Shown piece by piece: positions 4,140 to 40,177 of a stretch of DNA of 64,000 nucleotides. Made by a program: the position numbers and the translations under genes. Position 1 is the first letter of the stretch; every line of letters begins with the position of its first letter. The DNA is from Microcaldota archaeon (GTDB lineage Archaea > Micrarchaeota > Micrarchaeia > Micrarchaeales > CABMGC01). The notes beneath the pieces were generated by a model that worked only from the letters and a program-made list of their open reading frames with translations, had not been told where the DNA came from and made no database searches. Location of the stretch: NCBI GenBank assembly GCA_021797745.1, contig JAJZZD010000002.1:1-64000 (forward strand), read 5' to 3'.

Positions 4140-4331
4140 AAAATCACTTGCCGTCGAATCTTGGTTCGCCGGTTAACTTTGGAAAAGCATTGCATGCTTT
4201 TAAGGCTAACTACATGCTTAACCATTTGTCGTTTTTTATGCTTTCTGAATTTCAGAATCTTATAGGCAAGTAAATCAATGTCACATCCGAATAAACGTTT
4301 CCCGTGGGCTTCCTATGAGTTTGTGGGTTGA

Positions 4332-16599: not shown

Positions 16600-16672
16600 G
16601 GGGAGTTAGGCTAGCTTGGTAGGCTTTAAGGTTTGGGACCTTAAGACCCGTGTTCAAATCACGGACTCCCCG
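16600..16672 (+). tRNA. tRNA-Pro(TGG)
   Basis: The acceptor stem pairs GGGGAGT (16600-16606) with ACTCCCC (16665-16671). The anticodon stem TAAGG/CCTTA encloses the loop TTTGGGA with anticodon TGG (16634-16636). The T arm is CCGTG, TTCAAAT, CACGG. No CCA is encoded. The 3' end is the integration site of two elements: the last four bases belong to the casposon target duplication, and 16643-16673 is repeated at 29041-29071. Confidence 0.95.
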
Positions 16673-16673
16673 A
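16643..16673 (+). repeat. Attachment repeat, left copy (3' end of tRNA-Pro)
   Basis: A 31-bp segment starting in the anticodon stem's 3' side and running to one base past the discriminator is repeated exactly at 29041-29071. Such a direct repeat, full tRNA at one end and only its 3' part at the other, is the footprint of a site-specific integration into a tRNA gene. Confidence 0.88.
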
Positions 16674-16682
16674 GCTAATCAA
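16669..16682 (+). repeat. Casposon target-site duplication, left copy
   Basis: CCCGAGCTAATCAA flanks the left inverted repeat and recurs directly after the right one (27436-27449). Fourteen bp is the length known for casposon integration. The first four bases are the end of tRNA-Pro. Confidence 0.92.
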
Positions 16683-16713
16683 GGGGTATAGTATATAAGA
16701 TGGAAATGTCACC
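16683..16713 (+). repeat. Casposon left terminal inverted repeat
   Basis: It starts GGGGTATAGTATATAA and ends GGAAATGTCACC; 29 of 31 positions match the reverse complement of 27405-27435, with differences only at positions 17 and 19. Confidence 0.93.
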
Positions 16714-16772
16714 CCTACCTTTATAAAAGCCGATTCTGTCGTCAGAGATAGCGAAGGAAAATCATCTCCAAG

Positions 16773-16904
16773 CTATTTTATAGCAATTTTAAACTTATCA
16801 CAAGAGGAACATCTCCACCTAGACTTGAATTTACCTCCATGTAAAGTTTCATATCCACCTACCTGACTCCATTTATGCAGTCCAACTAAACATAGTATAG
16901 ACAT
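16773..16904 (-). CDS. Small zinc-ribbon-like casposon protein (43 residues)
   Basis: The short frame reads MSILCLVGLHKWSQVGGY, then a linker, then RWRCSSCDKFKIAIK. The arrangement C-x4-H-x-W and C-x2-C is common in small archaeal and viral zinc-binding proteins (a CLxGxHKW start with a distal CxxC). It is the last gene of the leftward casposon operon, 47 nt after the 311-residue surface protein, with AGGT about 7 nt before the ATG. Evidence is the motif and position only. Confidence 0.6.
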   Translation of the reverse strand: MSILCLVGLHKWSQVGGYETLHGGKFKSRWRCSSCDKFKIAIK

Positions 16905-16951
16905 AATGTTACCTAGATACACTTCCACTTAAAGCTTAAAAAAGAGGTAGA

Positions 16952-17887
16952 TTATTGATCTAAATAATCTCCATTGGAGCTTCCTGAAACTAAGAGTCCC
17001 TTAGAATTAGGTAATAGCGTTCCTTCTGCGTTACACAAAACAGGCAACACTATAGAATAACTCTGACCATTATTATTTCCAGCTATTCTTACAACTTCAC
17101 CAACTGCAATAGTATCATTACTCTGTGCTATTTCTTCAAGGTCTTTACATACGTAGCTTCCTGCTCGAGTTTCATTTTGATAGCAGTTAATCCCACCTTG
17201 CTCCCCCGTTTCAAAAGCCCAATAGTTTATCCACTGATTAATTACTATTGTCAGATTATTTTTTACAATGGCCATTCTGTTACTAGACTGCTCTGAACTT
17301 ATATTCTTATAGGCATAGGAATACAATGCGTATGAATACGCCCCATTTACGGGTAATGTAGTGTTATAACTGAACGAAGAGGCATTAAAGGTCTTGTCCA
17401 ATACCTGTTGGGTATTTCCGAGCACATTAGTCGAATTATATACCAGTAGTACATACTCATAAGTAAGCTGGCTTGGATCACTTGCAGCACAGGTGAGCTT
17501 CCATGGATTAGTATTTTCATTCAGGTTACATCCTCCAGTCACGTTTGTCTTGGAATAGACTACGGCCGAGGTAGGCTCTGATATTAAGACTGCTACTCTC
17601 TGACCGGTATTGTTAACACTAAATATTGAAGTATTTACGATGCTTAATTGGGCATCAGGAAACCATTTATCTGACAATACAGTCATAGCACTACTCACTT
17701 GCGCAGTACAGTTTGATACGGCTCTGTTTTGAGCTGTTGGAGCCGCTATTGATTTCACATTAGCACCGATGTTTGTTAAAGCCGTTTCTAAATTACTCAT
17801 AGAGAGCGGATTGAAAATAACTTGCACTATACTTAATGCTATTACTAAAACTATCACCAAGATTATAATGTTTGTAATAAACCCCAT
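16952..17887 (-). CDS. Casposon surface protein with N-terminal membrane anchor
   Basis: A hydrophobic segment (residues 4-27) precedes a roughly 280-residue extracytoplasmic part rich in Asn, Ser and Thr with about a dozen N-x-S/T sequons and several paired cysteines (for example NCTAQ, GGCNL, LTCAA, NCYQN, YVCKD, VLCNA). The product resembles archaeal glycosylated surface or virion proteins in composition, but I recognise no family. It lies 9 nt after the next membrane-protein gene in the cas1 operon. Confidence 0.82.
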   Translation of the reverse strand: MGFITNIIILVIVLVIALSIVQVIFNPLSMSNLETALTNIGANVKSIAAPTAQNRAVSNCTAQVSSAMTVLSDKWFPDAQLSIVNTSIFSVNNTGQRVAVLISEPTSAVVYSKTNVTGGCNLNENTNPWKLTCAASDPSQLTYEYVLLVYNSTNVLGNTQQVLDKTFNASSFSYNTTLPVNGAYSYALYSYAYKNISSEQSSNRMAIVKNNLTIVINQWINYWAFETGEQGGINCYQNETRAGSYVCKDLEEIAQSNDTIAVGEVVRIAGNNNGQSYSIVLPVLCNAEGTLLPNSKGLLVSGSSNGDYLDQ

Positions 17888-17896
17888 ATTACTACA

Positions 17897-18259
17897 TCAG
17901 ACATGTAATATATAAATAATAATGAGCAGTAAAATAACAATCCCTATGATTCTAATTACCGACCATATAAGTTTCCTGATCAATTTAACTATTCCGTAGC
18001 TTGGGTATCTAAATCTATTCTTATAGTTTACCTTGAGGGGTCTCTTGAAAGTTACATCATACCTAGCTAATTCTGCCTTGCTATATTCTACAAGTTGCGC
18101 CCTTATGCTCTGGCGTACGTTATGGCCTCGTTGGCTGTGTGACTTGTATACTCTGTGAGATAGATTGATTATAGCTCTATTGAGCTTGTTTTCATCCAGA
18201 TTATTGTGATTGTACTTGATGTACTTCTTGAGCCACAGTTTTGCGTATATAAGTTTCAT
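17897..18259 (-). CDS. Casposon protein with C-terminal membrane anchor
   Basis: A 120-residue, very basic protein (many Lys, Arg, Tyr, His in the first 90 residues) ending in one hydrophobic span (VIRIIGIVILLLIIIYILHV). A tail-anchored protein with the basic part in the cytoplasm is the simplest reading; it might bind DNA at the membrane. No family recognised. It is 15 nt from the polytopic membrane gene upstream. Confidence 0.78.
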   Translation of the reverse strand: MKLIYAKLWLKKYIKYNHNNLDENKLNRAIINLSHRVYKSHSQRGHNVRQSIRAQLVEYSKAELARYDVTFKRPLKVNYKNRFRYPSYGIVKLIRKLIWSVIRIIGIVILLLIIIYILHV

Positions 18260-18274
18260 TCTATCTCACATAAT

Positions 18275-19360
18275 CTATATTTCTTTATCTCTTTTTTTCT
18301 TTTGTTTTTCCTTTCTTACTAGTATTACCTTTTGGGTTTTTGGTTCCAAAAAGCTTACTTTAACATAATAGATAAACGCCCCTACCAATGTGTACATAGA
18401 TAAAATCGCAAAATTTAGAAACGTCAATATAAATATTAATTGGACATTAAACGAAATCCATTCTAAAACAATGATAGAAGAAGCAATACCTATAAGAAGT
18501 AAATAAAATAATCCAAAACTCTTATTTTTTATTTTCCCTAACATAGTAGCTATCAAAGCAACAAATATGCTTTCTCCAACCATTATGCTCATGGCAACAT
18601 TAGAAAGCGAAGAATAATCAATATTTGAAATTTGTGCATTTGTAAAAGGTTGATATATCCAAAAAGTTAGGTAAATAGTAAATATAGTAATTATCCAACC
18701 TATTCCTAAATGCACATTTAATGATTTTGTATTTGATGGGAATTTCTTTGTATGTGTTATGAGCTGATTAATTAACCCCGATAAAAATTCCTTACCAGAT
18801 CGAGAAAATAGATAGGTTAGAAGTCCGATCAGGATTATTATAAGATATATTAGGTGAGCTATTGGTGCACTTGGATATAATCCAGTTAAATAAAATCCTA
18901 AACTTATGAGTAAGATGCTCAGGCTAGCATTTTTAATAAAATCTTCAATTGCATCGTATTCTATCCTTGCTTTACTTTTTCTCTTTGGCTCCGCAAAAAG
19001 TTCAGATATTATCTTTTTTGCAGAATAAACTAAGCAGAAAATAAATACTATGGCTAAGAATAGAAAATATAAGGCTGACCAGATCAGATATCCCTTAAAA
19101 AATAAGTTTTCAGCAGAAATTAAATCTGCAATAGACACAAAAAATACAATTATAAAAGAAATTATCCTGTGATCTGCAAATATTTTGAAATTAAAGAAAA
19201 GCACAGTTAGGAATACATATATGAAAGCTAGGAACATTATCAATCCTAAGAAAGAATTTGTCAAAACATTGTTTTGGATAATAGATGATATACTAGCACA
19301 GAAAACACTAATTAAGATGATCCCAAGAATTATTTTGTCCATCAGACCAAATTTAAACAA
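18275..19360 (-). CDS. Casposon polytopic membrane protein
   Basis: The 361-residue product has about nine or ten hydrophobic spans separated by short charged loops, a basic loop near residue 130 (AEPKRKSKARIEYD) and a strongly basic tail. No transporter motif is recognised. It directly follows the Cas1-family integrase gene (6 nt), so it is co-transcribed with it. It is cargo of unknown role. Confidence 0.82.
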   Translation of the reverse strand: MFKFGLMDKIILGIILISVFCASISSIIQNNVLTNSFLGLIMFLAFIYVFLTVLFFNFKIFADHRIISFIIVFFVSIADLISAENLFFKGYLIWSALYFLFLAIVFIFCLVYSAKKIISELFAEPKRKSKARIEYDAIEDFIKNASLSILLISLGFYLTGLYPSAPIAHLIYLIIILIGLLTYLFSRSGKEFLSGLINQLITHTKKFPSNTKSLNVHLGIGWIITIFTIYLTFWIYQPFTNAQISNIDYSSLSNVAMSIMVGESIFVALIATMLGKIKNKSFGLFYLLLIGIASSIIVLEWISFNVQLIFILTFLNFAILSMYTLVGAFIYYVKVSFLEPKTQKVILVRKEKQKKKRDKEI

Positions 19361-19366
19361 ATCAAT

Positions 19367-20536
19367 TCACCTTGATATTTTCTGTATCGTTTTATCATAA
19401 ATCTTAATCCGCTTTCCTTCTTTAATGTTCTTTTTCATATACCACAGTGTGTTTCGCTTAATGCCCAGCATACGCCGTTCCTCTGGCGTCATGTCGGCTA
19501 TCCTATGTCGAATCTTAGTGTTATCTACTCTGTTAATCTCAAGTTTTGGAATATCAAAAGACAACCTAACAGACTTGCCTATAACATAATCTGCTAGGAG
19601 CCTAACGTTTTCATAAAGAACATTCTGATAACTATGGTATTTATCATTATATAGAACTCTAGAATTGAAGTTCAACTTTATCTTCTCAATTAGCATCTTT
19701 GCAGTGGTCTCTCTGAGTCTAATATTGTAGCTCTCAGTTACAATAAAGCTACTTGCCTTAAGCTTCTTCTCTTCGAGTAATTGTATAACTGATAGGTCAA
19801 CTATCCACCTAAAAAGCTCTTGCAGATCGTATACTAAAGACGCTCTGCCATCTTTTAGCTCGTGCAAGAAACCTATTGACGAGTCTAGGCCTATGGCGTT
19901 GATATCTCTAAGCACCTCTGCTTCTAGTATGGCATAACCATAATTCAGTAGCGCATTGATCGGATCGCTTGCATTCATATTCCAAGACTGTCTTCTGCCA
20001 TTCCTATCTGTAAATCTAAATTCTGGAGCTAGCTTGTTGAATACCTTACCTATCTCATGCCAGTATGCAATAGCTATATTACCCTCATAGGTTAGTACAC
20101 TTTCTGCTATAGTTCGCTCTTTGAATGCTGTAGGCTTTACTTCTAGATAGTACTTCGATAGCTCTGCAAGTAAGCTTATTGAGTGCTTAACCTTCTCCTT
20201 GACTATAGTCTCGGCTATTAGGCGTTTCTTTGCTTGGTCTGAGTAAGCTGCGTACTGTTTTATCTTGAGGTTAGCTGATGCTGGCTCTTTTGGCAAGGTA
20301 ACGCTTAGCAGATTGCCGTTCCAGTTCAAGAATATCAGAGATACATCATGTTTGATTAGCCAGCGCATAGCTTCAAACGTGATATTGCCAGTATGGCCAT
20401 CTATGATTATTGAATCATATGGTATCTGGTGTGGATAGAACTCAAATTTGTAGTTGTCAAGTTTATTTACAATAACTAGTCTACGTTTATCTACACGGAT
20501 GTGATTTCCAAATCCTGAGATTAGTAGCGGGTTCAT
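19367..20536 (-). CDS. cas1: Casposase (Cas1-family integrase)
   Basis: The 389-residue protein has the Cas1 fold signatures: an N-terminal beta domain, then YEGNIAIAYWHE with catalytic E151, then DSSIGFLHE with H225 and SLVYDLQELFR with D237 and E240. A C-terminal helix-turn-helix-like extension (TPEERRMLGIKRNTLWYMKK) is a mark of casposases. It would cut or join the element ends at the inverted repeats and insert them into the tRNA-Pro 3' end, leaving the 14-bp duplication seen here. The start overlaps the stop of the HTH gene upstream by 4 nt. No other cas gene is present. Confidence 0.95.
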   Translation of the reverse strand: MNPLLISGFGNHIRVDKRRLVIVNKLDNYKFEFYPHQIPYDSIIIDGHTGNITFEAMRWLIKHDVSLIFLNWNGNLLSVTLPKEPASANLKIKQYAAYSDQAKKRLIAETIVKEKVKHSISLLAELSKYYLEVKPTAFKERTIAESVLTYEGNIAIAYWHEIGKVFNKLAPEFRFTDRNGRRQSWNMNASDPINALLNYGYAILEAEVLRDINAIGLDSSIGFLHELKDGRASLVYDLQELFRWIVDLSVIQLLEEKKLKASSFIVTESYNIRLRETTAKMLIEKIKLNFNSRVLYNDKYHSYQNVLYENVRLLADYVIGKSVRLSFDIPKLEINRVDNTKIRHRIADMTPEERRMLGIKRNTLWYMKKNIKEGKRIKIYDKTIQKISR

Positions 20537-21426
20537 TTTTTCACCTCATTCATTTGCTTTTCTATAGCTTTTAGCGTCCTCTTCTCTTCCCTAGTCCCGT
20601 GTTTCTTTATATGTGAAAGGTCTCTTTTGTATTTTCCTCTAATATACTCAGTATAATGCAGTGATGGTTCTATTGTAAAACCCAATACATCATACCAAAT
20701 ATTCGGTGAAGTGGTAATAGATATTTTCGAATCTCTTATTCGCTGTACAAGTATATCAATTTTATCAAATTTCCTATCATTTCCATCTTTTGCTATCTTT
20801 TTTAATTCTGATTCGTAATTTTTGAACTCTTCTTCACTTTCAGCAAGATTTGAATAGACAAACTTGAAACTTTCAGGAGTTAATATCTGAACTTTTTGCT
20901 CTACAGCCTTCTGATTTCTAGTTTTTTTATCTGGAAAGATTTTGCCCCCTAAAAAGTTACCAAAAAGTGAATCGACAAACGCAAGAGAGGTTTTTGTATC
21001 ATCAGCAATATGGTAGCGCAATACACCTATTAACAAAACGGTCAAAATTGTCTTAGTTATTGCTGTTTCTATGGTCTCATTACCCTTGATTATTATAGGG
21101 TTTATCTTTTCGTTTTCAACTATACTCTTTAATGTAGATTTTTGATCCTCATCTAGGCCTAACTTTTGGCCTAAATAGTCAGATATTATTGCACTTTTTA
21201 GCTTGAATGGTTTTCCTTTAACTTTTGGCGACCACTTATTAGGAACTTCGATATATTGCTCTATTTTACTAAATTGCTTTAGGATAGTTTGCCTAGATAC
21301 TCCGCTTTTCTCTTCAACATCTAATGCGATTCTTGGTTTTTCCAAAAAATATGGTGCAAATATCCTAAACGCCTCACTTTGGAAAACAGATTCCAAGCTG
21401 TTAATTTCTTTGGTCATAATAATCAA
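20533..21426 (-). CDS. Casposon HTH protein, probable regulator
   Basis: The first 70 residues read like a winged-helix domain (ALDVEEKSGVSRQTILKQFSKIEQYI). A middle part with one hydrophobic stretch (ITKTILTVLLIGVLRYHIADD) and a highly charged C-terminus follow. It is the first gene of the leftward operon and faces a control region with repeated CAATTGTAA boxes, so it may bind them and regulate both operons, or take part in replication. It overlaps cas1 by 4 nt. Family not recognised. Confidence 0.8.
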   Translation of the reverse strand: MIIMTKEINSLESVFQSEAFRIFAPYFLEKPRIALDVEEKSGVSRQTILKQFSKIEQYIEVPNKWSPKVKGKPFKLKSAIISDYLGQKLGLDEDQKSTLKSIVENEKINPIIIKGNETIETAITKTILTVLLIGVLRYHIADDTKTSLAFVDSLFGNFLGGKIFPDKKTRNQKAVEQKVQILTPESFKFVYSNLAESEEEFKNYESELKKIAKDGNDRKFDKIDILVQRIRDSKISITTSPNIWYDVLGFTIEPSLHYTEYIRGKYKRDLSHIKKHGTREEKRTLKAIEKQMNEVKK

Positions 21427-21540
21427 TTGTAAACGGTTTTGTATTTACTTAACAATTGTAAATTCGTCTAATACTTTATCCAATTGTAACTATTTCATTC
21501 GTCAATTATCATTTGTGTAAACCTATACAACAATTGTAAT
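21424..21540. repeat. CAATTGTAA iteron-like repeats in the divergent control region
   Basis: CAATTGTAA occurs exactly at 21424, 21453, 21481 and 21531, all in the same orientation, with steps of 29, 28 and 50 nt; a degenerate copy (CAATTATC...GTGTAA) lies near 21502. Each core CAATTG is palindromic and two copies extend towards TTACAATTGTAA. They occupy the gap between the divergent operons, where operators or replication iterons would be expected. Confidence 0.8.
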
Positions 21541-21610
21541 ATGAATTAACTATTAAGAATTATAAAGGTTACTATAATATGCGCTTACCAAAAGCGCAGA
21601 GGAATATAAG

Positions 21611-22279
21611 ATGAAATTCTCGAAAAGATTCGGGTCATTCAGCGAATGGCTTCAGAGCCAAGATAAGAGGACGGGGTACGTCCAGCGCATTACTAGACTT
21701 CATAACCTATATCCCCATGCGTCGCTTGATGCGCTACGTGGCCATACAGCAAGTAGCAAAGCACTTAGGATGGCCAGTTCAGTTCCATTGTACAAAAGAT
21801 CATGGTCTACGCTCACCGTACGTGAAAAGGTAGCTAGGCAGAGAAGCTTGGACATCTTAAGCTTAGCTAGGCGTATAGGTGCCAGCTTAAGTCAGCTAGC
21901 TAAGGAGCGTGGCATACCTTTAGATACAGTACTAAAAAACACACATGCCTTTAAGAAAGTCAACGGACGCTGGAAAGCTATCGAGTACGACAGAATACCA
22001 AGAACGCTGCTTATTTACGAAAATAGACGTGAAGCGTTCGTAGAGATTACAGATAGCAGATATGCCAGCTTGATTGGTAAGTACCACAGCACAATCAAAG
22101 AATATTTGGAAAATGGCAGCCTTGAGGCTTTGGCTGAGTTCAAGAATAAGACGGTTAGGGATAGCAACGGGAATTATCATCTTCTTGAAACTGATCCTGA
22201 CACCATACGTGACATAGTTGAGAGCAAGGAGACAGAGTTCAACGAACCTATTTATGAGGGATTAAATGAGACAATGTAA
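21611..22279 (+). CDS. Casposon basic HTH protein
   Basis: The 222-residue protein is rich in Arg and Lys in its first 60 residues, and contains a helix-turn-helix-like segment about residues 90-118 (SLSQLAKERGIPLDTVLKNT). It is the first gene of the rightward operon and probably binds DNA. I recognise no named family. Its last 14 nt overlap the zinc-finger gene. Confidence 0.78.
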   Translation: MKFSKRFGSFSEWLQSQDKRTGYVQRITRLHNLYPHASLDALRGHTASSKALRMASSVPLYKRSWSTLTVREKVARQRSLDILSLARRIGASLSQLAKERGIPLDTVLKNTHAFKKVNGRWKAIEYDRIPRTLLIYENRREAFVEITDSRYASLIGKYHSTIKEYLENGSLEALAEFKNKTVRDSNGNYHLLETDPDTIRDIVESKETEFNEPIYEGLNETM

Positions 22280-22610
22280 TGAATGTGGTAAGGAATTTGT
22301 GAGTGGCAACTCATACAGGGTACATAAGTATCGTTTTCACAGAGTGCCTAAGCAAGATAAGTTGGCTGAGATAAGGCAGTTTGTGGAAACAACAGAACTA
22401 ACACCACAACATGAACCTGAACCAAAATTTGAGACAGTATCAGAACCAAAAACAACTACTACAGAGCAAAGCACTCAGAACGATGACCGTTGGGGTAGAA
22501 GAGAGATTACACGTAATAGTGGCAGTGACGATCTTGGTAGCCTGTTGGCCATAGGTGGAGCCGTAGCTGGCCTTATCTTATTGCTACTATTTGGTGGCAA
22601 GAAACAGTGA
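22266..22610 (+). CDS. C2H2 zinc-finger protein with C-terminal membrane span
   Basis: Residues 4-25 form one C2H2 finger (CNECGKEFVSGNSYRVHKYRFH; C4, C7, H20, H25), followed by a Gln/Thr-rich linker and a single hydrophobic span (LLAIGGAVAGLILLLLFGG) with a short basic tail. C2H2 fingers are rare in archaeal chromosomes but common in their viruses and plasmids. The protein could tie element DNA to the membrane. Confidence 0.82.
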   Translation: MRQCNECGKEFVSGNSYRVHKYRFHRVPKQDKLAEIRQFVETTELTPQHEPEPKFETVSEPKTTTTEQSTQNDDRWGRREITRNSGSDDLGSLLAIGGAVAGLILLLLFGGKKQ

Positions 22611-22795
22611 TTTTAATGGATGACAGCAAGCTCAACGATAAGCTCCTTGCACAGATGACAGACAAACTGCTAGAAACTGGAGAGCGTGAGCATCTTGACA
22701 TGAAGATAGTCAACAAGTTCGTGGCGTTACTTCAGTACATTTTCAGGAAAGACCCTAAGAAGAAAGATGAAAAGTGTATACTATGTCCAGACTAG
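22607..22795 (+). CDS. Small casposon protein, 62 residues
   Basis: The product is helical and charged, with a terminal KDEKCILCPD containing C-x2-C. It overlaps the zinc-finger gene by 4 nt and the HNH gene by about 20 nt, consistent with translational coupling. The start may be the inner ATG (MDDSKLNDKL). Function unknown. Confidence 0.65.
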   Translation: MILMDDSKLNDKLLAQMTDKLLETGEREHLDMKIVNKFVALLQYIFRKDPKKKDEKCILCPD

Positions 22796-23061
22796 AATTG
22801 CACCATGTGGCTGGCAAGTGCAGTTCAGAGCTTACATGTACACTGTGTGTCGGACACCACATGCCAATCAGCAACCGGCAGTGGTGCTGGGATGTTCGCT
22901 GGAATAGTCAAAGCAATTCAGAGAGTCTAAGAGCATCATTCATTGTACAAGGAGTGCAAGAGCTTCTAGTGGAGTTGCACGCTAGTACTGGTTTACATGA
23001 CTACAGGGTGCTAGCAGACTCTTTAGCCCCTACTATTCGAGGCTACAGAGAGCGTGGTTAA
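22774..23061 (+). CDS. Putative HNH endonuclease
   Basis: The N-terminal region LELHHVAGKCSSELTCTLC followed by VGHHMPIS resembles the HNH motif (His-His, then a Cys-x2-Cys-like metal site and a distal His). HNH nucleases are frequent casposon passengers. At 95 residues it is small, and the second metal pair is incomplete, so activity is uncertain. The ATG at 22783 (MSRLELHH) is an alternative start. It abuts polB directly. Confidence 0.55.
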   Translation: MYTMSRLELHHVAGKCSSELTCTLCVGHHMPISNRQWCWDVRWNSQSNSESLRASFIVQGVQELLVELHASTGLHDYRVLADSLAPTIRGYRERG

Positions 23062-25818
23062 ATGGAAAATGTAGACATATTCCTACGGTGCTATCTCAGC
23101 GAACCAAAAGTGAAAGGAGAAGACCCTTTTGAGCGCAACTTCAACCAAAATTTACTGTTCGTTTTCGACACCGAGACAAAAACCACATTAGATAAGGAGT
23201 ACCAAACGCTCTTGTTTGGTTCGTGCAGCATATATGAACGGTTTAGTGGTTGGGAACTGGTTCGTAGGATTATTTTCTACCCAAAGAGCATACGTGAAAG
23301 CGAATTGGACATACTCAAAGCAGTAGCGAAGAAGGAAAGGATAGAACTTCTACCAGTTGACGGGTTTATTGCGCTCTTCTTCATGTATGTTTACAAAAGG
23401 CGAGCATTATGCATAGGATTTAACTTGCCATTTGACCTGTCACGCATAGCAATGCACATAGGAACCTCAAAGAACGATAGGACTTCTTTCTCGTTGCAGT
23501 TATCCGATAGGCTATACCATCCAAGAATCTTCATAAAACACATAAGTTCCAAGAGTGCTTTTATCGGATTTTCAAGGCCGTTACTGCGAAATAAGAAGAG
23601 AAGTGACAGGAAAAAGTACTATGCTGGTGCATTCCTTGACCTCAAAACATTGGCGTTTTCCCTAACTAACAAGAGCTTTTCACTGGAAACTGCATGTGAT
23701 TACTTCAAAGTCGAGCACAAGAAGCTCAAAGCAGAAGAATTTGGGAAGATAACTGTAGATCATGTTGAGTACAATCTGCGAGATGTACTTGCTACTTACG
23801 AATTGTATCTTGCACTGGCAAGAAAATTTGATAGTTATGGGTTGAAAATAAGAATAAATTCGCTCTTTTCTCCAGCTTCGCTGGCGAAGGCATTCTTAGA
23901 CTCAATGAACATAAAATCTTTTGGTGAACAAAACCCTGAATTCAGAAAAGATACGCTAGGATATGTTATGACTACCTACTTCGGAGGTAGGTCAGAGGTG
24001 CATATACGTAAACGACATGTGCAAGTCTCGTATTTAGACTTCACTTCCATGTATCCATCACAGTTTGAACTACAGGATTTGTGGCCTTTTGTTGTTGCGA
24101 ATAAGATAAACATTATCAAAGACGACAAATTTCATGATTTACTGGACAAAATAACGTTATCCGACCTGAAAAATAAGGAAACATGGAAAAAATTGACAGG
24201 TATAGCTAAGGTGGATGCTAAAGACGACATATTCCCAGTAAGATCAGGATATGGAAGGGAAAATGGTCACAATATTGGTGTAAATCACGTCACAGGGCAG
24301 CTATATTATACGTATGCAGACATTATCGCCTCAAAACTTTTGACTGGAAAGACACCTCAAATCATAGAAGCTTACAGATTTGAGCCAGTTGGAGTACAGG
24401 ACGATCTCAAGAGGATAATGCTGTTTGGTAGAGAGGTAGACCCGTCAAAAGAAAGTTTTGTCAAAGTGCTAATAGAGCATAGGCTTGACATAAAGAAACA
24501 GCTTGATAGCGATAAGGATAATGCAGACTTAGATAACCAACAAAACATACTCAAAATAATAGCCAATTCTATTTACGGCATAAACGTTCAGATAGATACG
24601 GTTCCAGTGGACAAGTCAAAACATCCTGACGGAAAGGTAACAAAAGATGTTTACGGCCTTAGACACCTCTATGCTAGGGTTGGCAAGAATGAAGAGCAAG
24701 GCAAGGCGTTTAATCCTCTCATAGCAACGTGGCTTACCTCTGGTGCTAGGTTGATACTAGCTATGGCAGAAGCCTACCTTAAGGAAACTAGTGGGTATTA
24801 CACATATATGGACACGGATGGGATATTCGTTGATCCTAGTTCGGTTAAAGGTCTACAAGCGCTTGTAAAAGACCTAAATCCATACAACAGACACCTTGCT
24901 ATGTTCAAAGTAGAGGCAATAAAGGACAAGGATGGAGATATACCACTAGATAACGTTACTTTCTTTGGGATTTCTGCAAAAAGATACGGTTTATACACGA
25001 AAGATAACGTTACTGGCAAGATAAAGATACTGAAATGCTCGTCCAGTGCCATAGGACATATGTGCAGTATGCCGAAAGGATGGGAAAATGATTTCTGGGT
25101 AGACATACTACGATACGATAATGGTGAGATAACGAATCAGTATATAGTAGATAGATATGGTAAGATACCTGTTGCAGTACAGATATCTATCAGTTCACCG
25201 CTTATTCGTAACCAGTTCATAAAGTATTACAACGTTACTGCCTTCAATTTCATGATAATTGGTACGGGATATAACGTAGATAGCGTTACTGGTGAGCCTG
25301 TCATACCGATGATACCATATACAAAGGACTTGTCATCCATTATCTACACATCGTTTATAGACAAGATAACGGGTAAGTTATATACAAATAACACCGAATT
25401 CTATTGGAAACCGCTGTCAAAACTGTTTTTTGAGTATATAAAACATGAAGAAACTAAGTACGAAGGCAGTATAGGCACGTTAAAACGTAAACATCTACGT
25501 GTGGGTAGCGTTATCTACACTGGAAAAGAGTCAAATAACCTAGAAGAAAGCGAAATAATAGGTGTACAAGATGACGATAACGTTATCTACGATGACAAAG
25601 TAACAGATAAAAACGTGTTAAAACAGGGTAAAAATAGTGTTAAAAACAAGGAAATAATACGTATCATAATGCAAATGACCTACAAGCAAGCTGCCAGCGT
25701 AAGATTATCAAAAAGGCAACTACTTAGACTACGTAAGAAACTCAGAAACCATGAGCTGATAACGCTTAGGAATAAGACGATTAGGAAACTGTTAAATACC
25801 TCTTCAAATAACTCATAA
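23062..25818 (+). CDS. polB: Family B DNA polymerase, probably protein-primed
   Basis: The 918-residue polymerase has the three exonuclease motifs (DTE at 36-38; GFNLPFD about 119-125; YNLRD about 237) and the polymerase motifs A (YLDFTSMYPS, about 324), B (IIANSIYG, about 500) and C (YMDTDG, D584 and D586). The first exonuclease motif near the N-terminus and the gap of about 170 residues between A and B fit protein-primed polymerases with TPR insertions. Motif C ends in Gly instead of the usual Ser. About 330 residues after motif C, much more than in phi29-type enzymes, match nothing I know. It would replicate the casposon DNA. Confidence 0.92.
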   Translation: MENVDIFLRCYLSEPKVKGEDPFERNFNQNLLFVFDTETKTTLDKEYQTLLFGSCSIYERFSGWELVRRIIFYPKSIRESELDILKAVAKKERIELLPVDGFIALFFMYVYKRRALCIGFNLPFDLSRIAMHIGTSKNDRTSFSLQLSDRLYHPRIFIKHISSKSAFIGFSRPLLRNKKRSDRKKYYAGAFLDLKTLAFSLTNKSFSLETACDYFKVEHKKLKAEEFGKITVDHVEYNLRDVLATYELYLALARKFDSYGLKIRINSLFSPASLAKAFLDSMNIKSFGEQNPEFRKDTLGYVMTTYFGGRSEVHIRKRHVQVSYLDFTSMYPSQFELQDLWPFVVANKINIIKDDKFHDLLDKITLSDLKNKETWKKLTGIAKVDAKDDIFPVRSGYGRENGHNIGVNHVTGQLYYTYADIIASKLLTGKTPQIIEAYRFEPVGVQDDLKRIMLFGREVDPSKESFVKVLIEHRLDIKKQLDSDKDNADLDNQQNILKIIANSIYGINVQIDTVPVDKSKHPDGKVTKDVYGLRHLYARVGKNEEQGKAFNPLIATWLTSGARLILAMAEAYLKETSGYYTYMDTDGIFVDPSSVKGLQALVKDLNPYNRHLAMFKVEAIKDKDGDIPLDNVTFFGISAKRYGLYTKDNVTGKIKILKCSSSAIGHMCSMPKGWENDFWVDILRYDNGEITNQYIVDRYGKIPVAVQISISSPLIRNQFIKYYNVTAFNFMIIGTGYNVDSVTGEPVIPMIPYTKDLSSIIYTSFIDKITGKLYTNNTEFYWKPLSKLFFEYIKHEETKYEGSIGTLKRKHLRVGSVIYTGKESNNLEESEIIGVQDDDNVIYDDKVTDKNVLKQGKNSVKNKEIIRIIMQMTYKQAASVRLSKRQLLRLRKKLRNHELITLRNKTIRKLLNTSSNNS

Positions 25819-25821
25819 TTC

Positions 25822-26163
25822 ATGGCTAAACGAAAGAGGTCTAACAGTTTAAATTCTGTGATCAGATTTCTATCAGAGTGGATTGACAAAGCAGTACATA
25901 GCCTCATACAGCTTGTTACTGTAATTGCAATTATCGCAGGGACACTCTTAATAGTTTCACAGTTGCTTAAGGGGCAAGTCAGCTTAGTCTATAATTTGAT
26001 CCAAGTATGTGGTGTTATCGTTGCTTTATTACCTATTTTGATAACTGGTTTGATTAAGGAGAAGGCTAAAATTTTCCAAGAGTTTATTATAGCCGTTTTA
26101 CAGATAGAATATATTCTTCTTTTTTCTTTGCTCAGCGGTGTAATCTTTTTATATACTTGGTGA
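25822..26163 (+). CDS. Casposon small membrane protein (three spans)
   Basis: The 113-residue protein has a basic N-terminus and three hydrophobic spans (about 27-52, 60-82 and 90-112). It follows polB by 3 nt. No family recognised. Confidence 0.75.
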   Translation: MAKRKRSNSLNSVIRFLSEWIDKAVHSLIQLVTVIAIIAGTLLIVSQLLKGQVSLVYNLIQVCGVIVALLPILITGLIKEKAKIFQEFIIAVLQIEYILLFSLLSGVIFLYTW

Positions 26164-26185
26164 TACTGGGATTACTACGTCGAAT

Positions 26186-26335
26186 ATGGGATGGACAAGT
26201 GTGATCTATGGCTTCTCAGGATTACTATTTGGGTTTATGTTCTTATTCGGAATTGGTAGCTTTGTATATGCAATAAACGATTTTAGAACTGTTTTAGCCA
26301 AAAAATTCAAAATAAAATTAGATGAAGATGAATAA
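26186..26335 (+). CDS. Casposon very small membrane protein (49 residues)
   Basis: An ATG-led frame gives MGWTSVIYGFSGLLFGFMF onward, one long hydrophobic span (about 6-31) and an acidic end (KIKLDEDE). It fills the gap between the neighbouring membrane-protein genes and overlaps the next one by 14 nt, which supports coding. Function unknown. Confidence 0.55.
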   Translation: MGWTSVIYGFSGLLFGFMFLFGIGSFVYAINDFRTVLAKKFKIKLDEDE

Positions 26336-26516
26336 AATGTCACATAAAATAATGATTATGGTAGGAGAAATATTGAGGGATTTAGGCATCGGGATAGTTG
26401 GTGGTGCTATTGTATCTTATTTTGCGATATCTAACTCTCAATATGGCGTATTCATAGTAATGGGTGCAATATTTACTGCTATTGGGAACGGTATAAAAAT
26501 GCATTATTCAGAGTAA
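26322..26516 (+). CDS. Casposon small membrane protein (two spans)
   Basis: A 64-residue protein with two hydrophobic segments (about 20-36 and 41-57) separated by a short polar turn (SNSQYG). The start could be any of several early methionines. Size and layout resemble the two-helix coat proteins of spindle-shaped archaeal viruses, but sequence identity cannot be judged here. Confidence 0.65.
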   Translation: MKMNKMSHKIMIMVGEILRDLGIGIVGGAIVSYFAISNSQYGVFIVMGAIFTAIGNGIKMHYSE

Positions 26517-26523
26517 GGATAGA

Positions 26524-27351
26524 ATGGGATTCTTCGATAGATTTAGAAAATCAGATAACAAGAATGAATCTGCGAAAGATAAATCAACTTCGATACCCAA
26601 AGATAATAACATTGAAGAACCAATTATCAGAGAGGAACCAAGTGGTTCAGGTACTTACATTTACAGGGTTGATGAAAATAAGACTATTAACGAGCATCTT
26701 CAAATAATTGCGAACGAACTTTTAATCAAAAATAGGGCAATAAAAATTATATTAAAAGCAAAAGGCAATATGATATCTAGAACAATAGATGTTTCAGAAA
26801 TACTGCACATTCGTTCAAGGCCTCGATTTGACATATGTGCAGAAGATATCAAAATAGGCAAAGAAGAGAATAAGGTTGGAAATGCCATAACTGTAATCTC
26901 AAATATCGCTATTATACTCAGAATAAGGGAGACAATAACGGCAACTCAAACACCATGGACTAAGAAAAATACGTCAGAAGAAAAGAAGAAACCTGATTCG
27001 GAAAAAATTAAGAAAGTTGCTAAATTAGATAATACAATAGAGATAAAGTCAAATTCAGATAAAGACTTTGCAAATTCTGTATTGCAGACCATAACGTATC
27101 TTGTTAATTATAAAAGTGCAATTATTAGTGGGAAAAAAGAATACTCAACTAAAATTTTAGAGCTGAGAGACCTATTGGTAAATAAAGGGATGAAAAGTTA
27201 TTTAGATACTTTCTGGGACAAAAAAGCTGAGGAAATAGAGAAAACAACTGGAAAGAGAGAAATTAGATTGGTAAGTGATATTATGCCTACAGTCATAGTC
27301 GATTATACCAAAAGTAATACTGATAATATAGAAGTAGGTTTACATGTTTAA
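26524..27351 (+). CDS. Casposon Alba-domain protein
   Basis: Residues about 45-137 match the Alba fold. AIKIILKAKGNMISRTIDV aligns with [17 protein letters not shown] of the chromosomal Alba protein at 39854-40177, followed by SEIL, RSRPRF and a beta-hairpin with IGKEENKVGNAITVISNIAI. A charged N-terminal segment (1-40) and a roughly 135-residue C-terminal extension of unknown fold flank it. It would bind element DNA or RNA. It is the last gene before the right inverted repeat, 8 nt after the two-span protein. Alba fused to extra domains inside a casposon is unusual. Confidence 0.82.
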   Translation: MGFFDRFRKSDNKNESAKDKSTSIPKDNNIEEPIIREEPSGSGTYIYRVDENKTINEHLQIIANELLIKNRAIKIILKAKGNMISRTIDVSEILHIRSRPRFDICAEDIKIGKEENKVGNAITVISNIAIILRIRETITATQTPWTKKNTSEEKKKPDSEKIKKVAKLDNTIEIKSNSDKDFANSVLQTITYLVNYKSAIISGKKEYSTKILELRDLLVNKGMKSYLDTFWDKKAEEIEKTTGKREIRLVSDIMPTVIVDYTKSNTDNIEVGLHV

Positions 27352-27404
27352 AATAGTATAATTGTGAATTCCCTTGCTCTATATACTAAAATAGTTATAG
27401 AATA

Positions 27405-27435
27405 GGTGACATTTCCCTATTATATACTATACCCC
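27405..27435 (-). repeat. Casposon right terminal inverted repeat
   Basis: Reverse complement of the left repeat with 29 of 31 matches, ending CTATACCCC just before the second copy of the 14-bp duplication. Confidence 0.93.
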
Positions 27436-27449
27436 CCCGAGCTAATCAA
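27436..27449 (+). repeat. Casposon target-site duplication, right copy
   Basis: CCCGAGCTAATCAA is identical to 16669-16682. The run of seven C shared by the repeat end and the duplication leaves one base of uncertainty about the exact border. Confidence 0.9.
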
Positions 27450-27478: not shown

Positions 27479-28270
27479 TTATAAGTTCATTAGTTCAGTA
27501 AGCTGTTTTATGACTTCGCCGTTTTCAGGCAGAGGATTCACAGTATACGCCAATTCAGACCTCCATTTCATTTTATCTCTTGCAGTTTCTATTTTTTTCT
27601 TTAGTGTTTTTTTGTCGAATTTTTCGTTTCTCTTCCCGACCTTTTCTTTTATCAGTTTTTCGTCATAATTTATTTTCTTTATTACTAAAAGGTAATAAAC
27701 ATCGTAAATATCTCTCATCTTTGACCTTTCTAATACTGCCGACACCTTTTCAGCAAGTATTTCTTCAATATTCATCACCTGCAATGAAAAAGTACCTATG
27801 TCTTGGTAGATTGGTGATATGTACTTCAGCTCAGATTTAAGCAGAATATCATTTCTCAGGCTTAAGTCTATATTTATGTTCTGCAACTGACTGCTTCTTG
27901 GATTTAATGGACCTCTTACTCTTATCATATAATTTAATCCTATCGTTTTATTGCCTTCTTTCCTGGTTCTGTGCTCGCTGCTCACCACCTGATATTGTCT
28001 TCCTAAATTAAGTATCACAGATTCGATGGTTTTTGCCAATGCTTTCACATCTGTCGGATTTCTGTCCGGCATATATGAAAAGTCCAAATCTTCAGAAAAT
28101 CTGTTTAAGTTATAGAAATATTTGAGTGCGGTGCCGCCCTTGAAAATCAACTCGTTTGCGAATTTCGAAGATATTTCATGAAGGAGCAAAGTTAGCAAGT
28201 AGTCTCTTTCCAACTGCCTCATATCTCTGAACTTCCCTAAGTTTTCCATCAGCTGATGCTCATCAATCAC
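27479..28270 (-). CDS. AbiEii-type nucleotidyltransferase toxin
   Basis: The 263-residue protein has the signature FKGGTALKYFY then RFSEDLDFSY of the AbiEii/AbiGii nucleotidyltransferases, plus the later EEILAEKVSAVLERSKMRDIYDVYYL motif (third catalytic carboxylate and Lys). Family members act as toxins, in some cases by adding nucleotides to tRNA, and provide abortive phage immunity. It overlaps the AbiEi gene by 4 nt, the normal order for this toxin-antitoxin pair. Confidence 0.9.
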   Translation of the reverse strand: MIDEHQLMENLGKFRDMRQLERDYLLTLLLHEISSKFANELIFKGGTALKYFYNLNRFSEDLDFSYMPDRNPTDVKALAKTIESVILNLGRQYQVVSSEHRTRKEGNKTIGLNYMIRVRGPLNPRSSQLQNINIDLSLRNDILLKSELKYISPIYQDIGTFSLQVMNIEEILAEKVSAVLERSKMRDIYDVYYLLVIKKINYDEKLIKEKVGKRNEKFDKKTLKKKIETARDKMKWRSELAYTVNPLPENGEVIKQLTELMNL

Positions 28271-28905
28271 TCATACACCTCGTTGCCTTTTGCCTTTGGC
28301 CTTACTAATTCCCGCACTTTTTTCAATAAACTTGCAGAGTGCATCATTTTTGCATATTCCACCAGGGTGGCTTTCTTAAGCATTTTATGTCTTAAGGCAT
28401 CTAAATATGCTTCCTTGACAGAGGCTTTTTCCGGAGAACCGAGATATAACGAGTCTATTATGGCTTTTTCCACAGAAGCCATGAATGCATTCCCTATTTT
28501 TTTGTATCCGAAGAACCTATTGCGATTTAAAGTAATGAACTCTATTTCGTTTCCATCAATTGCGGCTGCCCTGTGCCTTTTTAGGGTAATTACGCTATAT
28601 TTTATCACGGATTGGTCAGTCAACGAGTAATATTGAAATGCTGCAAACATGCTTACATATGATGGATAAACGATATTCGATGCTATTTCATATATGTCGG
28701 CGCCGTCTATGCCGGTTATGTAATACAGACCCTTTATGGCCCGTTTGACCTTCTTGTTGTGAGAGAGCATCTTCGATACATAGGCCGGTTTCTTTCTGGT
28801 AATTTTGACAACATCAAGTACGCTGAAAACGCGCATGTTGCTTTGAATTAGCCGATCAAGGACATCTTGCATTTTTAAGTAACGTGACATACACACCACA
28901 TTCAT
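28267..28905 (-). CDS. AbiEi-type antitoxin/regulator
   Basis: The 212-residue product begins with a winged helix (VFSVLDVVKITRKKPAYVSKML then a wing GLYYITG) followed by the AbiEi C-terminal domain (YPSYVSMFAAFQYYSLTDQ). It probably represses its own operon and neutralises the nucleotidyltransferase. The start could be the second methionine (MSRYLKMQ, 28890). It lies inside the tRNA-Pro island, where a toxin-antitoxin pair stabilises retention. Confidence 0.87.
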   Translation of the reverse strand: MNVVCMSRYLKMQDVLDRLIQSNMRVFSVLDVVKITRKKPAYVSKMLSHNKKVKRAIKGLYYITGIDGADIYEIASNIVYPSYVSMFAAFQYYSLTDQSVIKYSVITLKRHRAAAIDGNEIEFITLNRNRFFGYKKIGNAFMASVEKAIIDSLYLGSPEKASVKEAYLDALRHKMLKKATLVEYAKMMHSASLLKKVRELVRPKAKGNEVYE

Positions 28906-29040
28906 AATATTACTGCATGTATGTTTTTAAGCTTTTGTATCGTTATCACCATATTTGTGGTAATATAGTTACACAAGTTCCTTCTATTTGTATAATTATT
29001 GGCCATACAGCAAGGGCAAACGAAAAAACAAACGCCGCTA

Positions 29041-29071
29041 AAGACCCGTGTTCAAATCACGGACTCCCCGA
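29041..29071 (+). repeat. Attachment repeat, right copy (partial tRNA-Pro)
   Basis: An exact 31-bp copy of the tRNA-Pro 3' end (anticodon-stem 3' side, T arm, acceptor 3' strand). The rest of the tRNA is absent, so it is not a gene. It marks the chromosomal right border of the older insertion. Confidence 0.88.
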
Positions 29072-39853: not shown

Positions 39854-40177
39854 ATGGCAGACATGAACGAGGAAAAACAAGAGAACCAAGTACAGAGGAG
39901 CAGCTCAATACCGGAAAATGTGGTGTACATAGGAAAAAAGCCCGCCATGAACTACGTGCTGGCCGTTGTGACACAATTCAACAATGGGGCAAAAAGCATA
40001 AAGATAAGGGCCAGGGGAAACACAATAACTAGGGCTGTGGACGTTGCTGAAATATCTAGAAACAGGTTCTTGCAGGACGTTAAGGTGGAGAACATAGCCA
40101 TAAACTCCGAAGAGCTTCAGAACGAGGACGGCACTAAGTCAAAAGTAAGCACGATAGAAATAAGCCTTGCAAGATAA
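39854..40177 (+). CDS. albA: Alba chromatin protein
   Basis: The 107-residue protein has the full Alba pattern: [52 protein letters not shown] and a final strand. It binds DNA and RNA as a dimer. The N-terminal 15 residues are acidic. GGTGA lies 4 nt before the ATG. The casposon encodes a distant relative (26524-27351). Confidence 0.95.

Follow-up and report, generated by a model that had tools for sequence, protein, structure and literature searches.

The window, i.e., the whole stretch of 64,000 nucleotides that was analyzed, contains a complete casposon whose last gene encodes an Alba-domain protein of 275 amino acids, here named AlbaC (26524..27351, plus strand, an open frame with an ATG start), and this identification is almost certain. 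Casposons are mobile elements related to the CRISPR machinery, the adaptation part of which is proposed to have descended from them. To our knowledge, little is known about the functions of casposon accessory genes. What is new here is a known type of element with a new sort of cargo: no earlier report of an Alba-domain gene on a casposon was found in the open-licence papers searched. AlbaC, whose three-gene module moves between genera, offers a well-defined and testable example in which a transposon bears a derived form of a host DNA-packaging fold.

The Alba domain comprises residues 43-137 (26650..26934, plus strand), as delimited by Pfam, a host-Alba profile, structure prediction and Foldseek. 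It is the sole Pfam domain in the protein, with PF01918 matching at E 2.9e-6 and 27.4 bits where the gathering cut-off is 25; in the whole-genome Pfam search, the same site scored 23.8 bits, under the cut-off. A profile made with the Alba domains of related host genomes (15 domains, query left out) gave AlbaC 26.6 bits, against 10.7 for the highest-scoring of 5000 shuffled copies, and a BLASTP comparison with the chromosomal Alba of the host (107 aa, 39854..40177, plus strand, recognized by genome search and NCBIfam) showed 46% identity over 48 aa, overall identity being ~30% in the alignment. PDB Alba chains matched at E 1.2e-4 and weaker. When AlphaFold was run with an alignment of 17 rows, host Albas among them, residues 43-136 were modeled with block-mean pLDDT of ~83-95 over nearly the whole domain, in the order b-a-b-a-b-b (b1 44-48, a1 55-69, b2 74-80, a2 81-97, b3 102-118, b4 121-136). 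The top Foldseek matches of this model in the PDB were all archaeal Alba proteins, with TMt of 0.82-0.87 for most of them; since the alignment included Albas and a prediction from the sequence alone was poor and uninformative (pLDDT 42), these structural values and the profile scores are not fully independent of each other. The sequence-only reading had proposed an Alba domain resembling that of the host, to be checked by a PF01918 profile search and by structure prediction, and both analyses bear it out.

Seven core residues of AlbaC (L59, A79, G81, I84, D89, E92 and I93) are invariant with the 15 host-type Alba rows, and its b2-a2 motif reads K78-A-K-G-N-M-I-S-R86. NCBIfam TIGR00285 matched at E 6.4e-6 and 26.1 bits, far under its equivalog cut-off of 88.25; thus, AlbaC belongs to the Alba superfamily but is not an ordinary Alba. 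Compared with the Alba/Sac10b family (PF01918, including archaeal DNA/RNA-binding proteins and eukaryotic relatives), it shares fold, core sequence, Pfam score and nearest structures, and differs in being encoded by a mobile element, in falling under that equivalog cut-off, and in carrying extensions of 42 residues at the N-terminus and 138 at the C-terminus, close to the approximately 40 and 135 residues estimated earlier. Within the known Alba superfamily, a domain architecture such as that predicted for AlbaC was not found elsewhere in our searches.

The N-terminal extension, residues 1-42 (26524..26649, plus strand), is a low-confidence tail starting with MGFFDRFRKS, with a short predicted helix at residues 3-7 and pLDDT <50 at residues 8-40; an amphipathic N-terminal helix was considered and discarded, the hydrophobic moment being no higher than that of permutations. 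Behind the Alba domain, residues 138-168 (26935..27027, plus strand) form a lysine-rich linker with a net charge of +5 that is predicted to be disordered, followed by a C-terminal domain of 107 residues (169-275; 27028..27348, plus strand) with three predicted helices and a low-confidence end, for which sequence and structure searches yielded no significant relative or recognized family. The closest candidate was Dim2/Pno1, in which the stretch before the second KH domain resembles this region (35% over 54 aa; E 9.6e-4 per genome, picked from a 301-genome search); a kinship to the Dim2/Pno1 KH proteins is kept as a lead only, a 30-sequence profile giving 11.5 bits, rank 2/5001, with one shuffle scoring higher, which does not set it apart from shuffles. 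The remaining matches, to a ribosomal-protein region and to PDB entries at E >1, were weak.

The element enclosing AlbaC is a complete family-2-type casposon at 16683-27435. It is bounded by 31-nt terminal inverted repeats (TIRs) that are 94% complementary, the left at 16683..16713 (plus strand) and the right at 27405..27435 (minus strand), the latter beginning ~53-54 nt past the AlbaC stop codon. Identical 14-nt copies of the target-site duplication (TSD), CCCGAGCTAATCAA, flank the element at 16669..16682 and 27436..27449 (plus strand), and no third copy occurs within the window. The integration target was a tRNA-Pro gene (TGG; 16600..16672, plus strand, by tRNA detection), whose 3' end is overlapped by the left TSD, and a TCAAATC motif precedes the TSD by exactly 8 bp. 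The same spacing from TCAAATC to the TSD was mapped for the Aciduliprofundum boonei casposase, and the A. boonei casposon likewise has a 14-15 bp TSD at the 3' end of tRNA-Pro (PMC6614799). The features that define a casposon, cas1 outside a CRISPR locus and polB between TIRs with TSDs, are therefore present, together with the integration pattern of family 2 casposons, and the earlier proposal that AlbaC is encoded by a casposon is confirmed. A hallmark of family 2 is that Cas1 carries, at its C-terminus, an HTH resembling one of PolB (PMC9939771). The tail of the Cas1 in the window matched the PolB C-termini of related casposons at E 7e-7 to 4e-5; compared directly with the PolB tail of the window, it gave no match. 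The element resembles the family 2 casposons (Krupovic et al., 2014; A. boonei) in this likeness of the Cas1 tail to PolB C-termini, in PolB, TIRs, TSD and the tRNA-Pro target, and differs from them in its AlbaC module and in its Micrarchaeota host.

The plus-strand genes run from 21611 to 27351, and as far as the first membrane-protein gene they overlap or are only a few bases apart. This run starts with a conserved casposon protein (21611..22279), homologues of which are encoded by almost every related casposon; a small protein with a C-terminal hydrophobic segment (22266..22610), which is C2H2-zinc-finger-like (zf-C2H2 E 0.0013, under the cut-off) and has homologues in Micrarchaeota casposons; and a further small protein (22774..23061), conserved ahead of PolB at most of the related loci, which had no Pfam match and whose homologues in relatives are HNH-like, with an LELHH..C..CH motif in two of them (L028 and L029). 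An HNH endonuclease and a pair of HTH proteins are further characteristics of family 2. PolB (918 aa, 23062..25818; PF00136, 28.9 bits; 46-49% identical to other Micrarchaeota casposon PolB proteins) is followed by two small membrane-protein genes, and AlbaC is the last gene of this polB operon. Membrane gene 1 (25822..26163, plus strand) starts right behind the PolB stop at 25818, and membrane gene 2 (26322..26516, plus strand; 64 aa, hydrophobic, probably with two segments by eye, the hydropathy threshold of 1.6 not being reached) ends 7 nt before AlbaC. An extra T near 26146, in a run of T, shortens membrane gene 1 to 113 aa, compared with 170 aa and four hydrophobic segments in the intact copy of a second genome; it represents either a real mutation or a MAG assembly error, and the module may be partly broken in the window. 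On the minus strand are the Cas1 casposase with its C-terminal tail (19367..20536; PF01867, E 5.9e-57), a gene overlapping cas1 (20533..21426) with an HTH-like N-terminus by eye and no Pfam match above the cut-off, and two left-end cargo genes, one for a protein with one N-terminal hydrophobic segment (16952..17887), with a homologue at the same end of the element in another genome (G017), and one for a multi-pass membrane protein, as read by eye (18275..19360).

Related casposons were collected by scanning the contigs of 84,980 species (genome_contigs) with a PolB alignment, which gave 29 loci, several of them cut short, from Micrarchaeota, Nanoarchaeota, Aenigmatarchaeota, Nitrosopumilus, Methanolobus, Methanococcoides and others. 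None of the 29 contained a relative of AlbaC by phmmer, nor an Alba-like ORF by the host-Alba profile (0/29 each), in agreement with the earlier remark that casposons do not usually include chromatin proteins. The absence of AlbaC from these PolB-related casposons indicates that it is accessory and dispensable for casposition. In two relatives (G066 and G006), polB is followed by other genes instead (a 164-aa ORF and a 56-aa ORF), and the opposite end carries a set of methyltransferase genes or a secreted, transglutaminase-like protein, as read by eye. A protein search of the viral_contigs collection returned no AlbaC, and none was present in the phages and plasmids searched; a 15-mer TIR scan of viral_contigs gave 85 matches, about the chance level in so large a collection. 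Searches in the Aenigmatarchaeota phylum and in the class of Methanolobus returned no AlbaC; run without a positive control, they carry little weight. In the phylum of a Nanoarchaeota locus (L046), Alba matches were short, as judged by open-frame length, and the single long-frame match proved to be an ordinary Alba; long-ORF matches in the related genomes G003 and G038 were tandem host Albas. Tandem double-Alba chromosomal genes of two related genomes lie at L005 1402-2013 and in L013. Methanosarcinales genomes with related casposons (L056-L058, L060, L062, L063 and L066) lacked any Alba match, so that an Alba on a casposon would have no counterpart in them, and none was found.

Among the 301 genomes of the host phylum, AlbaC occurs in two only, that of the window and one of a different genus in the same family (G027). 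Window positions 25758-27251 are 96.8% identical to G027 over 1494 bp, and 141 bp including the right repeat are 95.7% identical, whereas chromosomal matches between the two genomes reach ~67-79%. The 97% identity of the module end against ~67-79% for host DNA shows a recent horizontal movement of this element end between genera. In G027, membrane genes 1 and 2 overlap, AlbaC starts 7 nt after gene 2, and its frame is readable up to a contig break inside the gene; the module adjoins a tRNA-Pro(CGG) gene, with the opposite element end facing the tRNA. No full Cas1 or PolB match was present in G027 at the thresholds used, and fragments resembling the PolB and Cas1 tails were found at 1436-1651 and 4146-4307 of the same locus (L026). 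This copy looks like a rearranged relic, to be read with the limit set by the contig break within AlbaC. Both AlbaC frames are open, and the proteins are 93% identical. Single changes between them comprise 9 synonymous and 14 nonsynonymous ones (p 0.03, or 0.085 if codons with multiple hits are counted as nonsynonymous), which, in a comparison of two near-identical copies, weakly suggests purifying selection on AlbaC. Beside the module, genes for an HNH endonuclease (type-IV-restriction-like), MazG, a NUDIX protein, a PIF1-like helicase and a PD-(D/E)XK nuclease stand in a row (L026 1648-6744).

With the integration of these findings, we propose that this family-2-type casposon carries AlbaC as optional cargo, outside the transposition machinery. 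AlbaC would bind nucleic acid through its Alba-fold domain, by analogy as a dimer, with the lysine-rich flexible linker joining this domain to the C-terminal helical domain. The two small membrane proteins would be co-expressed with it from the end of the polB operon as a three-gene module, which would benefit the element by acting, perhaps close to the membrane, on nucleic acid of the host or of competitors. That the membrane genes travel with AlbaC makes such a module the best-supported guess, to which we assign a probability of roughly 0.4; in this reading, AlbaC would co-operate with the membrane proteins and have a host-facing role. The Alba fold with its kept core residues and b2-a2 motif, the tight operon, the module shared with G027, the readable AlbaC frame there, its absence from 29 casposons, the weak sign of purifying selection and the HNH, MazG and NUDIX neighbors in G027 speak for the cargo reading; the frameshift in membrane gene 1 of the window, the family-less C-terminal domain and the existence of only two near-identical copies count against it.

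As for the molecular activity, nucleic-acid binding by AlbaC is likely, judging from the predicted fold, the kept core and the basic b2-a2 motif, and the protein may form dimers as other Albas do. The positions of the Alba lysine pair and phenylalanine (Lys16/Lys17 and Phe60 in Sso10b numbering) are altered: in the alignment with host Albas, D-E-N-K replaces G-K-K-P, with E51-N52 at Lys16/Lys17, and H-I-R-S replaces R-N-R-F, with S98 at Phe60, although a one-residue shift of the alignment would set K53 at Lys17. The sequence-only reading had suggested that AlbaC might coat or silence element DNA, take part in replication with PolB or compete with the host Alba. That AlbaC coats or silences the casposon DNA as a second, element-specific Alba agrees with the Alba fold, with a domain charge of +4, near the +3 of the host Alba and supplemented by the +5 linker, and with the apparent co-transcription of albaC with polB. 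The chromatin reading is weakened, however, because the DNA-contact lysine pair and the dimer-dimer Phe positions are not conserved, changes that would argue against an Alba1-like coat, and because a large extra domain and two co-encoded membrane proteins accompany the fold; further, Alba1-type chromatin proteins measure ~90 residues, compared with the 275 aa of AlbaC and its score under the TIGR00285 equivalog cut-off, and 29 related casposons manage without it. We thus consider an element-specific coat unlikely, and the function "chromatin protein" is not supported for AlbaC.

The same substitutions, with the Alba core kept, are the pattern expected of a modifier of host chromatin, in which AlbaC would form heterodimers with the host Alba and break up or re-target its filaments. 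Sulfolobus Alba2 acts in this way on Alba1, forming heterodimers that break up filaments; it is an Alba-fold paralogue that behaves differently from Alba1, but short and chromosomal, unlike the longer, casposon-borne AlbaC. A host Alba is encoded in the same genome; on the other hand, AlbaC is only ~30% identical to it and the membrane genes are left unexplained, and this modifier reading appears quite unlikely. A broader form, in which AlbaC remodels host chromatin either through mixed dimers with host Alba or by membrane tethering of Alba-bound DNA/RNA via the partner proteins, is rather unlikely as well; if true, a transposon would manipulate archaeal chromatin directly. A precedent for a casposon gene possibly touching Alba chromatin is found in the Sir2-like genes discussed by Krupovic et al. 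(2014); these encode an enzyme that possibly deacetylates Alba, unlike the Alba-fold AlbaC, and no Sir2-like protein was recognized in the present element.

AlbaC might instead help Cas1 to pick or reach the tRNA-Pro target, in an IHF-like manner, or PolB to copy the element. It shares the operon with polB, and archaeal Cas1-Cas2 gain specificity from host factors (PMC5815122). Nevertheless, an IHF-like role becomes less likely because Alba1 did not confer specific integration on Sulfolobus Cas1-Cas2 (PMC5815122) and the A. boonei casposase needs no help to reach its tRNA-Pro target in vitro (PMC6614799). A core replication role with PolB is unlikely too, since the gene is missing from related casposons whose PolB, as well as Cas1 and TIRs, are homologous, and we regard the accessory function as improbable overall. 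Equally improbable is that AlbaC is a mere passenger that stems from a captured Alba-like gene of a host and is slowly eroding under little selection: the narrow distribution (2/301 phylum genomes), the frameshift in membrane gene 1 and the marginal selection test would fit such a fate, but the AlbaC frame is open in both copies, at 93% protein identity, and the module is common to two genera. The optional-cargo reading is the one that we retain.

Further traces of mobile elements were observed around tRNA-Pro genes. The inverted-repeat start of the casposon recurs in a third element, located behind a tRNA-Pro(CGG) gene in G017 (contig C26, L202 9418-9987), where the contig ends after 486 nt; the G017 element is also the one carrying the homologue of the left-end cargo gene at window positions 16952-17887. 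Just outside the casposon, the window contains an AbiEii/AbiEi-type toxin-antitoxin pair (27479-28905), followed by a second copy of the tRNA-Pro 3' end (34 nt, 97% identical, 29038-29071), and, to judge from this arrangement, pair and copy look like the remains of an older element at the same tRNA.
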